Shown here: positions 1 through 6,929 of the stretch, piece by piece
How positions within the stretch are numbered: the stretch's first letter is position 1
How the letters are laid out: each line of letters starts with the position of its first letter
Origin: Planotetraspora mira
GTDB taxonomy: Bacteria > Actinomycetota > Actinomycetes > Streptosporangiales > Streptosporangiaceae
NCBI RefSeq assembly: GCF_016863275.1
Contig: NZ_BOOO01000040.1
Coordinates: forward strand, 62,001-126,000
Direction: 5' to 3'
Length of the DNA: 64,000 nucleotides
Made by a program: the position numbers and the translations under genes
The notes under the pieces: generated by a model
Databases searched by the model: none
Seen by the model: only the letters and a program-made list of their open reading frames with translations
Told to the model about the DNA's origin: nothing

Positions 1-346
1 ACAGTGACGGTGACGGTGACGACCAGCTTCGCGCCGCCGCAGTGCCACAGGGCCAGTGACGGGTCCAGGTCGCCGGAGCCGGTGACCACCACCTTCATGG
101 GGTGCTCGGTCAGACCTCCCCCAGGTGGGCGGTTCGCCGCTCCGCCGAGCCGACCAGCAGTCGCGGGTTGTCGCGGCGCACGGCCGTGGCCCCGAGGAGG
201 ATGGCGTCGACTTCGGCGCGCACCGCGTCGACCCGGTCGAAGTCCTCGCCGCTGGACAACAGGAGCCGCTCGGGGCCGGCGTCGTCGAGGTAGCCGTCGG
301 CGGTCGCCGCGGCGGACCGCAGCACGTACGGCCGAGTGGTGGCCAT
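1..346 (-). pseudogene. RibD C-domain-like (dihydrofolate reductase fold) reductase, frameshifted and cut by window edge
   Basis: The minus strand starts at ATG 346 and reads a RibD-type reductase N-terminus (ATADGYLDD, then AILLGATAVRRDNPRLLV). It meets a stop at 110, while the family sequence continues in another frame (LTEHPMKVVVTGSGDLDP) until the window edge. One base appears to be missing near 115-125, in a run of five C (plus strand). The protein would be a pyrimidine reductase-like NADPH enzyme, and its place directly after a GTP cyclohydrolase II gene fits riboflavin or deazapurine metabolism. Whether the frameshift is real or a homopolymer error cannot be decided here. Confidence 0.7.
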
Positions 347-359
347 CGGGGGCTCCCGG

Positions 360-1157
360 CTAACTCGCGAGTTCGGTCAGGGCGATGGTGTGGCCCGTAC
401 GGTCGACCTTGGCGCGCAGGTAGCGCATGTTGCTGTCGGTGGCGAAGACGCCTGTGGGCACCCGGCGGCGCACCGTCACGCCGAGGGCGGACAGCTGACG
501 CTCCTTGTCGGGATTGTTGGACAGCAGGTCGACACTGCCGATCCCGAGCGCGCCGAGCATCTGCGCGGCGACGGTGTAGTCCCGACCGTCCTCCGGCAGC
601 CCGAGCGCGGCGTTCGCGGCGTAGGTGTCCAGGCCGTGGTCCTGCAGGGCGTAGGCGTCCAGCTTGTTGTACAGGCCGATCCCCCGACCCTCCTGACGCA
701 GGTAGAGCAGCACCCCTTCCGCCGCGGAGAGCCGCTCGACGGCCTCGCGCAGCTGCGGGCCGCAGTCGCAGCGTGCCGAGCCGAAGACGTCGCCGGTGAG
801 GCATTCGGAGTGCAGGCGCACCAGCGGGGACGCGCCCGCGTCCGGCTCACCGAAGACGAGCGCCACGTGCTCGCCGTCGTCGGCCAGACCACGGAAGGTC
901 ACGGCCTCGGCCACCGTGCTGAACCCGTCGCGGAACCGCAGGGGCACACGCACCCGTGTTCGTACGACGGCGTCCGCGTTGTGGTCCGACGCGGAGAGCG
1001 GTTCGCCTGAGACCACATCGACGTAGATGCCTGGCTCCTTTGAGTTCCAGAACTCGTTTTCCAAGGGCGGCTCGGTGACGTCGTCCTGGGTGACCGCCCC
1101 CTGTCGTGACGTCAGTCGTTCTACTGCCTCGGGCGTGCGCTCATATGTCTGTGCCAT
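360..1157 (-). CDS. ribA: GTP cyclohydrolase II with an MsrB-derived N-terminus (chimera)
   Basis: 265 residues. Residues about 65-262 are GTP cyclohydrolase II: zinc cysteines C119, C130 and C132 in HSECLTG and CDCG, then LRQEGRGIGL and LLSNNPDK. The enzyme opens GTP to the pyrimidine precursor of riboflavin in the cytosol. Residues 1-57 (for example EFWNSKEPGIYVDVVSGEPL) instead match the start of methionine sulfoxide reductase B and stop before its catalytic region. Start ATG 1157 has AGGAG seven bases upstream. The frame is open further upstream into the SDR remnant, but the RBS favours 1157. The RibD-like gene follows 13 bp downstream. The chimera probably keeps cyclohydrolase activity; the MsrB part cannot be active. 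Confidence 0.88.
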   Translation of the reverse strand: MAQTYERTPEAVERLTSRQGAVTQDDVTEPPLENEFWNSKEPGIYVDVVSGEPLSASDHNADAVVRTRVRVPLRFRDGFSTVAEAVTFRGLADDGEHVALVFGEPDAGASPLVRLHSECLTGDVFGSARCDCGPQLREAVERLSAAEGVLLYLRQEGRGIGLYNKLDAYALQDHGLDTYAANAALGLPEDGRDYTVAAQMLGALGIGSVDLLSNNPDKERQLSALGVTVRRRVPTGVFATDSNMRYLRAKVDRTGHTIALTELAS

Positions 1158-1259
1158 GGTTCTAGCTCCTCGCTGTGGGGTTTGACTTCTCGTGTTGGTT
1201 TGCCAAGGAGTCCGTGCTGTGCCCGGACCTCGCGTGGCAGGGGATCTCTTTGAGGCCTG

Positions 1260-1992
1260 ATTCCGGCCCGCCATAACGCCGCCGTCGACGTTGACGATCG
1301 CGCCGGTGACCCAGCTGGCATCGTCGGAGAGCAGGTAAGTCACCGCAGAGGCAATGCCCTTGGGCGTTCCCACACGGCCGAGCGGGTGGAAGCCGTTGAA
1401 GGTGTTGAGCGTGGCCTCGGGCTGGTCCCTGGGTACGAACGCCTCATACAAGGGGGTGGCGCCACGGCGTTGACGCGGATCTTGTGCTCCGCGAGCTCCA
1501 TGGCCAGGTTGTGGGTGAGCGCATGGAGGGCCGCCTTGCCCATCGAGTAACCGGTCGCGGGGGTGCGGCGACGGCTTGGTGGGCCCACATCGATGGCGCC
1601 TTCGCCGGCGCTGATCATGCCTCGGGTGACGGTTGGGTGAGGAAGAAGGCTGACATGGCGAGCTCGAGGTAGGCGTCGTAGTCGGCGCCCTCGTAGTCGA
1701 GGAAAGCCTTGGGGATGAAGAAGCCGGCTGAGTTCACCAGGAGGGCGGCGTCAGCGTGCTCGGCCGCCGGCGTGTCCTGGACCCGCCTGACGTCGTCGTG
1801 GTTGGCAAGGTCGGCAGTGATGCCCCATGCCTCCCCGTTCTGGACAAGGTGCTGACGGTGTCGTCCACGCGGGCCTGGTCGCGGCCGATGATGACGGCCG
1901 AGCCGCCGGCCGCGATGACGTCTTCAGCACTCTGCCGTCCCATGCCGCTCCTGCCGCTGACGGCGATCAGTTTGCGGCCTTCGAACGCCCAT
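1260..1992 (-). pseudogene. short-chain dehydrogenase/reductase, multiply frameshifted
   Basis: Pieces of one classical SDR are readable in order on the minus strand in different frames: KLIAVSGRSGMGRQ (cofactor loop), a LLVNSAGFF segment, TGYSMGKAALHALTHNLAME (catalytic YxxxK) and the tail DDASWVTGAIVNVDGGVMAG. At least four frame changes and a small deletion before TGYSMGK separate them. AAAGGAG lies before ATG 1992, but that ATG is out of frame with the cofactor loop. The last piece runs in frame into the following chimera. A decayed gene is likeliest, though the density of shifts could also reflect poor sequence. Confidence 0.75.
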
Positions 1993-2459: not shown

Positions 2460-3206
2460 TCACAGCCGGGATCTCAGCACGTCGACCTCACAGCCCGGCG
2501 CGAACGGGTCGAAGCCGTGCTCGACCAGCCAGCGAACCACCAGCAGGCTTCGCAACGACCACCACGCGCGGATCACGTCGAGGTCGACGTCGGTGCCATA
2601 GCCGGCGACGACGTCGCCGAGGTGCTCCTCGTGTCCGAGCGTCAAGATGGCGAGGTCGAACAGGGCATCACCTCGGCCCGCCTCGGACCAGTCGATGATG
2701 CCCGTGATCTCGTCGCCGTCGACGAACACGTGAGCGATCTGCAGGTCGCCGTGCGTGAACACCGGGGCCCACGGCCGGAGCGCGTCCTCGGCGACCTGGC
2801 GGTTGCGGGTGACCAGGTCGGCGGGCAGGACGCCGTTCGTCACGAGCCACTCGCACTCACCGTCGAGATCCGCCGCCAACTCGTCGCGGCCCCGGCCGGC
2901 CCGGCCGAGCCGGGGCGGCAACGGCGCGTCGTGCAACCTCCGGATGGCGGCGCCCGCCGCGGCCCACGCCGCCGGGGACGCGGTAGACGGCTCGCCGAGG
3001 CGGCCGAGCGCCGTCCCCGGGACTGCGGCGATGGCGAGCACCGGCGGCTTGTGCCACAGGACCTTCGGGGTCGGGACCGGCGCCAGGGCCATCGCCTCGA
3101 CCTCGACGTCGATGCGCGCCTGATCGGCGTCCACCTTCAGGAACACGTCGCCGACGCGCAGGGTCGCGCGCTCGGAATGGGCGACGACCATTTGGACTTC
3201 ATCCAT
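2460..3206 (-). CDS. aminoglycoside phosphotransferase (APH)-family kinase
   Basis: 248 residues with the APH/choline-kinase fold: an N-terminal lobe with FLKVD, the catalytic motif HGDLQIAHVFV and the metal-binding segment IIDWSEAGRGDALFDLA. In Brenner's motif HxDxxxxN the Asn position is His here, so metal binding may differ from true resistance enzymes. Substrate unknown; it should not be called an antibiotic resistance gene. ATG 3206 is chosen because the fold begins at once; GTG 3230 is possible and neither has a good RBS. Downstream lies only the IS scar. Confidence 0.8.
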   Translation of the reverse strand: MDEVQMVVAHSERATLRVGDVFLKVDADQARIDVEVEAMALAPVPTPKVLWHKPPVLAIAAVPGTALGRLGEPSTASPAAWAAAGAAIRRLHDAPLPPRLGRAGRGRDELAADLDGECEWLVTNGVLPADLVTRNRQVAEDALRPWAPVFTHGDLQIAHVFVDGDEITGIIDWSEAGRGDALFDLAILTLGHEEHLGDVVAGYGTDVDLDVIRAWWSLRSLLVVRWLVEHGFDPFAPGCEVDVLRSRL

Positions 3207-3350
3207 GGGCGACCAGTATCCCGGGGGCAATCGTCGACGTCGCCGGGTTTTTCGCGTGCGATGGCGGCTGACCGCGTCCCGCTACCGAGCAGCCTCGTGC
3301 GCGACACCGACCGCTGATCAGGTCAAGTCCGCCACTTTTGTTAAGAGCCC

Positions 3351-5331: not shown

Positions 5332-6582
5332 TTACTCGGTCCCCGCGATAGTGCTGCGGCGCTCGATGAAGACGACGTCGCGCCAGCGGTCGCGGTGGCG
5401 GCCGATGCGCTGGCGGGTGCCGATAATGCAGAATCCGGCCTTCTCGTGGAGGCGGAGACTCCCGGTGTTCTCGGGGAAGATCCCAGACTGGATGGTCCAG
5501 ATGCCTGCGGTCTCGGTGGACTGGACGAGGGCCTTCAGCAGCGCGGTGGCGATTCCGCGGCCCCCGTGATCAGGGTGAACGTAGACAGAGTGCTCGACCA
5601 CTCCGGCGTAGACGCATCGGTCGGAGATGGCACTGGCGGCGACCCAACCGAGTACCTGACCGGTAAGCGCTTCGACGGCGACGTGCCGATGGAGAGGTAA
5701 CTTCGCGGCGTCGAACGCTTCCCAGGTCGGTGCGGTGGTCTCGAAGCTGGCATTGCCGCTGTCGAGCCCGGCTTGGTAGATGTCGAGGATCTGCCTGGCG
5801 TCGCCGGCCGTCATGGGGCGGATGTTGATCTCGGGCGGTGCTGCCGGTTTGGTCGCCTGGATGATCGCCGAGTGGAGACCGTCGGCTGCTGCCTGGGTAC
5901 GCGTGATCGTGTAGGTGGTGAACCCGGCTGCTGCCAGCAGAGAGAGGTACTCGGATTCGGCGAGGGTGCCGATGGTGCAGCCGACGAGTTGTTCGGCTTC
6001 CGCGCGCTGCGCGGGGTCGAGTCCGTCGTCCGCGATGACGTCGCTGATGCCGAGTCTGCCGCCGGGTTTGAGGACGCGGAAGGCTTCGGCCAGGACGCGG
6101 GGTTTGTCGGCGGACAGGTTGATCACGCAGTTGGAGATGATCACGTCGATGCCGGCATCGGGAAGCGGGATGTCCTCGATGTGCCCGTGGAGGAACTCGA
6201 CGTTGTTCACCCCGGCTTCGGCGGCGTTGGCCCTGGCGAGGGTGATCATGTCGGGGGTGGCGTCCAGGCCGTAGGCCTTGCCGGTGGGGCCGACTCTGCG
6301 GGCCGAGAGCAGGACGTCGATCCCTCCGCCTGAGCCGAGATCGAGGACGGTTTCCCCCGGTTGGAGGTCTGCGACGGCGACAGGGTTTCCGCATCCCAGG
6401 CTGGCGCGGACCGCTCCCTCGGGGAGCTCTCCTGTGTCGCTGTAGGCGGCGGCCCCGAATCCGCCGTCGTTGAATTGTTGTGGTCCGCAGTCGACGATCT
6501 GGAGTTGGGCTTGGGCGGTGCGGGCGAGTCGGCCGTAGCGTTCGACGATGGTTGCTCGGACCTTGTCGGCGTCTTCGGGCAT
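5332..6582 (-). CDS. arsM: arsenite S-adenosylmethionine methyltransferase fused to ArsN1-type N-acetyltransferase
   Basis: 416 residues. Residues 1-245 are ArsM: SAM site DLGSGGG (81-87) and cysteines C32, C64 (GCGNP), C152 (SNCVIN) and C202 (GCTIG), which bind As(III) in the family. Residues about 253-416 are a GNAT domain ([48 protein letters not shown]) closest in pattern to ArsN1/phosphinothricin-type acetyltransferases, which acetylate arsinothricin. One polypeptide would methylate inorganic arsenic and acetylate an amino-acid arsenical. ATG 6582 has GGAGGA upstream and lies 11 bp after arsR, so both form an operon. Confidence 0.9.
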
Positions 6583-6593
6583 GTGTCCTCCGG

Positions 6594-6929
6594 TCAGCAG
6601 GCGCAGCCTGGCGGGGAAACGGGATTGCCCATGACCACGTCGGCGGCCGTGGGGAAGGCCCCTATGCACGCCTTGTTGATCTCATACAGGCTGGACGTGC
6701 CCCGACGCTCGACCAGGACGAATCCCACCTCGGCCAGCACCTTCAAATGCGCGGACACGGTCGACTGCCCGACGTCTACTGCCTCGACGATCTCTTTGAC
6801 CGACATGGGCGCTTGGCGCCTGGCGAGCAGGGTGACGATCTGGATGCGCGTGGCGTCGGCCAATGCCTTGAACCACGAGGCGTACTTCATGGCTGTGGTC
6901 CGGTCGAGCGGTCCTGTTCCCTCATTCAT
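6594..6929 (-). CDS. arsR: ArsR/SmtB-family repressor
   Basis: 111 residues: winged helix with recognition helix VGQSTVSAHLKVL (53-65). Candidate As(III) ligands are C88 and the C-terminal pair C109/C111 (GCAC), an arrangement outside the classic ELCVCDL site of E. coli ArsR, so sensing probably uses C-terminal thiols. First gene of the unit with the ArsM-ArsN1 fusion. A palindrome overlaps the start codon (6928-6950), indicating autorepression. Confidence 0.9.
   Translation of the reverse strand: MNEGTGPLDRTTAMKYASWFKALADATRIQIVTLLARRQAPMSVKEIVEAVDVGQSTVSAHLKVLAEVGFVLVERRGTSSLYEINKACIGAFPTAADVVMGNPVSPPGCAC

Follow-up and report, generated by a model that had tools for sequence, protein, structure and literature searches.

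A ribA-ribD_C segment inserted into msrB and the chimeric GTP cyclohydrolase II gene of Planotetraspora

Introduction

How does a gene for GTP cyclohydrolase II (RibA) come to begin with the first codons of a methionine sulfoxide reductase gene (msrB)? The question is raised by a single intact frame on the minus strand (360-1157; 265 aa plus stop, by translation) of a 64,000-nucleotide stretch of Planotetraspora mira DNA, here called the window, from a genome of 9.03 Mb in 100 contigs. A first-pass annotation had read the frame as a cyclohydrolase preceded by about 57 residues of MsrB, i.e. as a recombination-born chimera that uses the expression signals of another gene. To our knowledge, young bacterial chimeras are seldom caught while the unsplit ancestor, the probable donor, both joints and the leftover half of the host gene are all still readable.

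Composition of the chimeric frame

The fusion of an MsrB N-terminus to a cyclohydrolase is borne out by the intact frame, by domain matches to both proteins and by PDB chains (Table 1). Pfam SelR (PF01641) matches residues 15-61 at profile positions 1-47 of 116 with 29.4 bits (cut-off 24.9), or gives 33.2 bits when the first 66 residues are taken alone; at most profile positions 1-48 are covered, i.e. the SelR domain is not complete, and the MsrB model TIGR00357 gives 35.7 bits at a cut-off of 113.05. GTP_cyclohydro2 (PF00925) matches residues 83-234 at positions 15-165 of 165 (190 bits), NF001591 scores 261.7 bits (cut-off 148) and TIGR00505, with 198.8 bits, stays slightly below its cut-off of 205.85. 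MsrB chains in the PDB align with residues 1-62 at most and GTP cyclohydrolase II chains with the remainder, where SECLTGDVFGSARCDC (with its cysteines) and the neighbouring motifs line up with the E. coli RibA structure 2bz0. In E. coli RibA the zinc-binding cysteines are C54, C65 and C67. Compared with the native gene of genome G004 (see below), 6-7 codons of the ribA start region are missing. The catalytic cysteine of MsrB, which lies in the C-terminal half, is absent, and with half of the domain missing Msr activity would not be expected from the chimera.

While the MsrB origin of the first part stands, its extent has to be amended from about 57 residues to 59 codons plus two bases. The ribosome-binding site and the start codon do belong to msrB, as had been stated: both are kept in 5/5 chimeras and in the unsplit msrB loci examined within the family (4/4), unlike the unsplit msrB of Nocardioides terrae, which has a GTG start. 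Judged by conserved sequence only, the cyclohydrolase would thus have captured the expression signals of msrB.

Table 1. Positions in the window of the chimeric gene, its parts and its decayed neighbours
Feature	Position	Strand	Basis or remark
Pseudogene of ribD_C (pyrimidine reductase), which follows ribA in the insert	1..346	(-)	extends beyond the left window edge; several deletions and a frameshift near codon 76
Chimeric ORF MsrB(1-59)::RibA	360..1157	(-)	translation, Pfam, NCBIfam and PDB chain matches
ribA-derived part: complete catalytic core, own start region gone	363..978	(-)	Pfam, PDB, comparison with native ribA
Left insertion junction: msrB ...GGTCCACAA, then native ribA CGCGGA..., about 1 shared base	978..979	(-)	
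msrB-derived 5' part: msrB nt 1-179, codons 1-59 plus two bases	979..1157	(-)	DNA alignment with N. cypriaca msrB, ending at nt 179; SelR match
Start codon ATG of the msrB part	1155-1157	(-)	
GAGGAG, msrB ribosome-binding site, 8 bases before the ATG	1166..1171	(-)	sequence, comparison across loci
SDR oxidoreductase pseudogene upstream of msrB	1256..1992	(-)	limits by eye; 6 indels relative to N. cypriaca

Distribution of the junction

Planotetraspora is a genus of soil actinomycetes. The genus sample comprised five genomes: G000 (the window genome), G001, G002, G003 (Planotetraspora silvatica NBRC 100141) and G004. Five Planotetraspora species have been compared in the literature, with OrthoANI values of 84.47-95.25% (PMC11431748). 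A 78-residue stretch across the joint is present in 5/5 genomes of the genus, the four other copies being 85-88% identical to that in the window. In a search of 341 genomes of the family this query matched 25 at E 1e-12 or better, and end to end only the five of the genus; the next longest match (G189, to residue 74) turned out to be an msrB with internal indels. Among the best 80 of 482 loci of the genome collection, from which close relatives of the window genome are possibly excluded, only P. silvatica covers the joint.

An assembly artefact, which the first-pass annotation had allowed for, might be suspected from the G004 contigs, which break within both ribA copies. The identical junction in all five genomes, in four of them inside contigs of 117-178 kb, already refutes this reading, which we consider practically out of the question. 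The other reservation, that the extension could be an ancestral ribA domain, fails as well, the extension not being found in the family genomes and the best 80 loci outside the genus. The chimera is real and shared by the genus, and it is not an ancestral domain, as msrB is unsplit in the loci examined outside the genus.

Insertion of the segment into msrB

An unsplit msrB stands behind the same SDR gene in Nonomuraea cypriaca K274 (G153), G144, G076 and Nocardioides terrae, while in G189 the same SDR leads into the msrB with internal indels; in N. cypriaca msrB is followed by msrA. In an alignment with N. cypriaca, msrB of the Planotetraspora loci extends to base 179 and gives way to ~1.38 kb of other DNA, after which G001 and G003 resume at base 182. 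This DNA holds ribA, a gene for a RibD_C-type reductase and, in reverse orientation, the 3' end of an epimerase gene. Two msrB bases were lost at the insertion; the left joint shares about one base and the right joint (...GTCGATCG / ACAGTCAC...) three, TCG. When the five loci were tested for the insertion, the left msrB flank was found in 5/5 and the right joint in G001, G003 and G004.

Remnants of msrB follow the insert in 4/5 genomes. In G004 the remainder still reads as an open frame, with 0 indels over 298 bp; in G001 and G003 it is riddled with indels; in G002 the right joint is deleted and the first ~190 bases of the remainder are lost, about the last 110 being left. In G000 no msrB remainder follows the insert. 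A recombination-born chimera was therefore rightly proposed, but not as the plain joining of two genes, since a ribA-ribD_C segment was inserted into msrB and remnants of the latter lie downstream.

A deletion that fused neighbouring msrB and ribA genes, by removing the end of the one and the start of the other, would account for a joint in frame and for a ribA that is nearly all kept. However, the msrB remainder sits after ribD_C and was not lost between the genes, it is msrA and not ribA that follows msrB in N. cypriaca, and the insert terminates in the tail of another gene, one that adjoins the native ribA locus. The right joints of G001, G003 and G004 already refute such a fusion; it would take a further rearrangement to save it, which makes it highly improbable. 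Equally improbable, in our estimate, is that msrB was split into two expressible halves, MsrB(1-59)-RibA and the C-terminal half of G004, which reassembled when the chimera was young. In G004 this C-half (right end of contig C106) is open and has an ATG overlapping the ribD_C stop (ATGA); it contains 'RYCINSASLRF'. If this were true, the reassembled halves would tether Msr activity to a flavin-precursor enzyme.

As to the route of the inserted segment, a transposon-borne insert was considered and rejected: there is no target-site duplication at the insert, no direct or inverted repeat pair at both ends of the G001 insert (inverted pairs being judged from 25 of 41), and no transposase within it, where only ribA, ribD_C and the gene tail are found. 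The complete msrB that was looked for elsewhere in the window genome is present on contig C4; it shows no DNA match to the MsrB piece and was dismissed as its source.

Elsewhere in the window, a transposase-like frame (2284-2414), read from the sequence, has no Pfam or NCBIfam match, and just past the shared gene set lies a member of the aminoglycoside-phosphotransferase family (2463-3230, minus strand; APH, PF01636, 76.8 bits). A single frame at 5332-6588 (minus strand) combines an arsenite methyltransferase (PRK11873, 274.6 bits, over the cut-off) with an ArsN1-type N-acetyltransferase domain (116 bits, below the model cut-off of 170), and is adjoined by a gene for an ArsR-type regulator (6594-6929, minus strand).

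Origin of the inserted segment

In the native loci of G000-G003 the genes for MarR, ribA, ribD_C and a convergent epimerase are adjacent. Native ribA and the insert differ by a dS of 0.54-0.61 in these four genomes. In the RibA tree, which has 17 outgroup rows, the inserted copies of G000-G003 group with the native ones of the same genomes in one clade (98/94), within which the native copies form a clade of their own (99/96). At 19 outgroup ribA loci, the 1.5-kb flanks gave a RibD_C match in 15, a MarR match in 14 and both in 13 (all family f18), and an epimerase gene in 0/19. A search of 338 genomes recovered four and missed G004 at the cut-off, because of the contig break in ribA.

The closest match is found in G004. 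The start of its native ribA shares 108-111 of 118 bases with the insert in four chimeras and 106 of 111 aligned bases with that of G003, and the end of its epimerase gene matches at 49/50 bases in G001, 42/43 in G002, 50/50 in G003 and 52/52 in G004. Compared with the four other native loci, the G001 insert is 78-82% identical at its left end and 78-85% at its right end. The best-matching donor is thus the G004 native locus, a probable assignment that rests on ~118 and ~50 bases because both ribA copies of G004, chimeric and native, are cut at contig ends (residue 99), for which reason the native one does not figure in the RibA tree either. On the G004 contigs C48, C100, C98 and C106 the native and the inserted ribA-ribD_C are interrupted at two shared points, a pattern that points to a collapse, in assembly, of nearly identical intervening stretches of the two copies.

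Horizontal movement of the gene set

The chimeric ribA genes differ by a dS of 0.048-0.087 in 6/6 pairs; between species, dS is 0.073-0.365 for native ribA and 0.041-0.256 for recA. G000 and G003 are the closest pair by recA (100/100) and by native ribA, but not by the chimera. Between genera, the SDR gene shows a dS of 0.032-0.059 when compared with N. cypriaca and of 0.064-0.153 with G144, G076 and G189; for recA, the latter three give 0.267-0.419. The tree of SDR and leader is nearly a star, with 1/6 inner branches well supported, and unites the five chimeras as one clade with weak support (57/74).

Because its divergence, both between species and between genera, is lower than that of recA, the SDR-msrB-msrA gene set has probably moved horizontally, and since the joint is identical the insertion would have been made once, in or near a G004-like lineage, so that the chimera probably has a single origin. 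A plasmid source of the SDR-msrB piece was tried and rejected: 61 plasmid records matched, none of them covering at least 80% of the query. Among the best 8 of the 61 the matches span SDR only (66-69%), and two further records reach 80-90% over some part. For the chimera itself, the best 30 of 785 plasmid records show a top identity of 73% from residue 64 on; those among them whose match begins before residue 62 have 41-59% identity.

The N. cypriaca recA was excluded from the rates because its match is split. A ~1 kb interruption lies inside one open frame of 743 codons (G153 contig C273, 6072-8126) and looks like an intein. The assembly is listed with 9% contamination.

Decay and constraint

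The surroundings of the chimera are partly broken. In the window genome the SDR stop has changed from TAG to CAG, and therefore the last SDR frame runs on into the chimera; a continuous open frame of 457 codons extends across the SDR end, the intergenic region and the chimera, with a 363-aa ORF from a TTG. It could accordingly be asked whether the whole locus is a decaying pseudogene cluster, in which the chimera is open by chance and its RibA is not used. In the window genome both SDR and ribD_C are broken (SDR in G003 also) and two other RibA genes are present, and the chimeric ribA (N:S 16:22) is less constrained than native ribA (20:68; Fisher p=0.033). Against this, 265 codons stay open beside an SDR with six indels (P about 0.014 that all six fall in SDR if equally likely, in a comparison picked post hoc, and P 0.25 that the leader alone, of 177 bases, escapes by chance; towards the outer ends of decayed stretches the indel counts may be alignment noise), the N:S ratio of the RibA part departs from neutral (p=1e-4), and ribD_C is a 240-aa frame in 3/3 other genomes in which it is assembled. 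General decay of the locus is therefore unlikely, although the chimeric RibA may be starting to decay, being less constrained than the native gene. The rates for the RibA part do not include G004, whose contigs stop at residue 99.

For the leader, the N:S of 16:8 (least-change counts) does not depart significantly from the neutral expectation (p=0.25); three intact msrB genes show 4:8 at these codons, and the leader differs significantly neither from these (p=0.08) nor from the RibA part (p=0.07). The intact msrB genes have a pooled pN/pS of 0.190 with and 0.178 without Nocardioides terrae, G189 being excluded because of its indels. As read from these substitution patterns, the leader appears to evolve near-neutrally and the RibA part under purifying selection.

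A role of the MsrB piece as a functional domain that regulates or targets RibA would fit the absence of indels from the leader in 5/5 genomes. Apart from its near-neutral N:S, W37 is replaced in 4/5 chimeras, SelR is represented by less than half of its profile, and the leader is predicted to be disordered: the structure model (of moderate quality, from a shallow alignment; mean pLDDT 62.6) has a pLDDT under 50 at residues 1-10 and 15-61. A function of this kind is very unlikely.

Proposed history and function

Following these results, the explanation in which we place considerable confidence is that a copy of ribA-ribD_C was inserted in msrB, giving a redundant but catalytically complete RibA that is made from SDR-msrB signals and carries an inert leader. 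A ~1.4-kb copy of a native ribA-ribD_C locus, which starts at about codon 7 of ribA, spans ribD_C and stops within the 3' end of the convergent epimerase gene, lies between msrB bases 179 and 182 (codon 60) of an SDR-msrB-msrA gene set, a placement that can be read directly from the sequences. The left joint is in frame, and therefore the msrB ribosome-binding site and start stand at the head of the 265-codon MsrB(1-59)::RibA. With homology as short as about 1 and 3 bases, the joining resembles illegitimate end joining or template switching. Spread of the altered gene set among Planotetraspora species would then have followed.

The product would be a GTP cyclohydrolase II expressed from the SDR-msrB signals and not from the native, MarR-linked ones, with a 59-residue leader that is presumably inert and without Msr activity. 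Judging from the sequence, production of an active chimeric RibA probably continues, but the enzyme would be redundant, because the native copy is present in the genome as well, along with a third RibA encoded in an open frame of 521 codons. Streptomyces coelicolor has a third GCH II variant.

The case illustrates how, in one step, a metabolic gene that was duplicated can abandon its own promoter and adopt the translation start of another gene; the constraint on the resulting leader is measurable against the same codons in intact msrB.

Comparison with known systems

The chimera is a well-documented gene accident of a known kind, and not a new enzyme or system. As judged by titles and the beginnings of abstracts, no MsrB-RibA fusion was found in the literature, and the main text of the Planotetraspora phylogenomics study (PMC11431748) contains no occurrence of riboflavin, horizontal or genomic island.

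It resembles GTP cyclohydrolase II (RibA; PF00925, NF001591) in its full catalytic domain, zinc cysteines and motifs, and differs in that its own start is replaced by 59 MsrB codons; it is paired with a ribD_C reductase gene, and the two were copied together from a native locus that has MarR upstream. With MsrB (PF01641, TIGR00357) it shares the N-terminal 59 residues, the ribosome-binding site and the start, whereas the C-terminal half is absent. The likeness to the chimeric or composite genes of prokaryotes, as outlined in PMC6769587, lies in a new frame assembled out of pieces of two unrelated genes; in the present case the pieces and their joints, the probable donor and the unsplit ancestral form are readable, and the host gene was split, not joined end to end.
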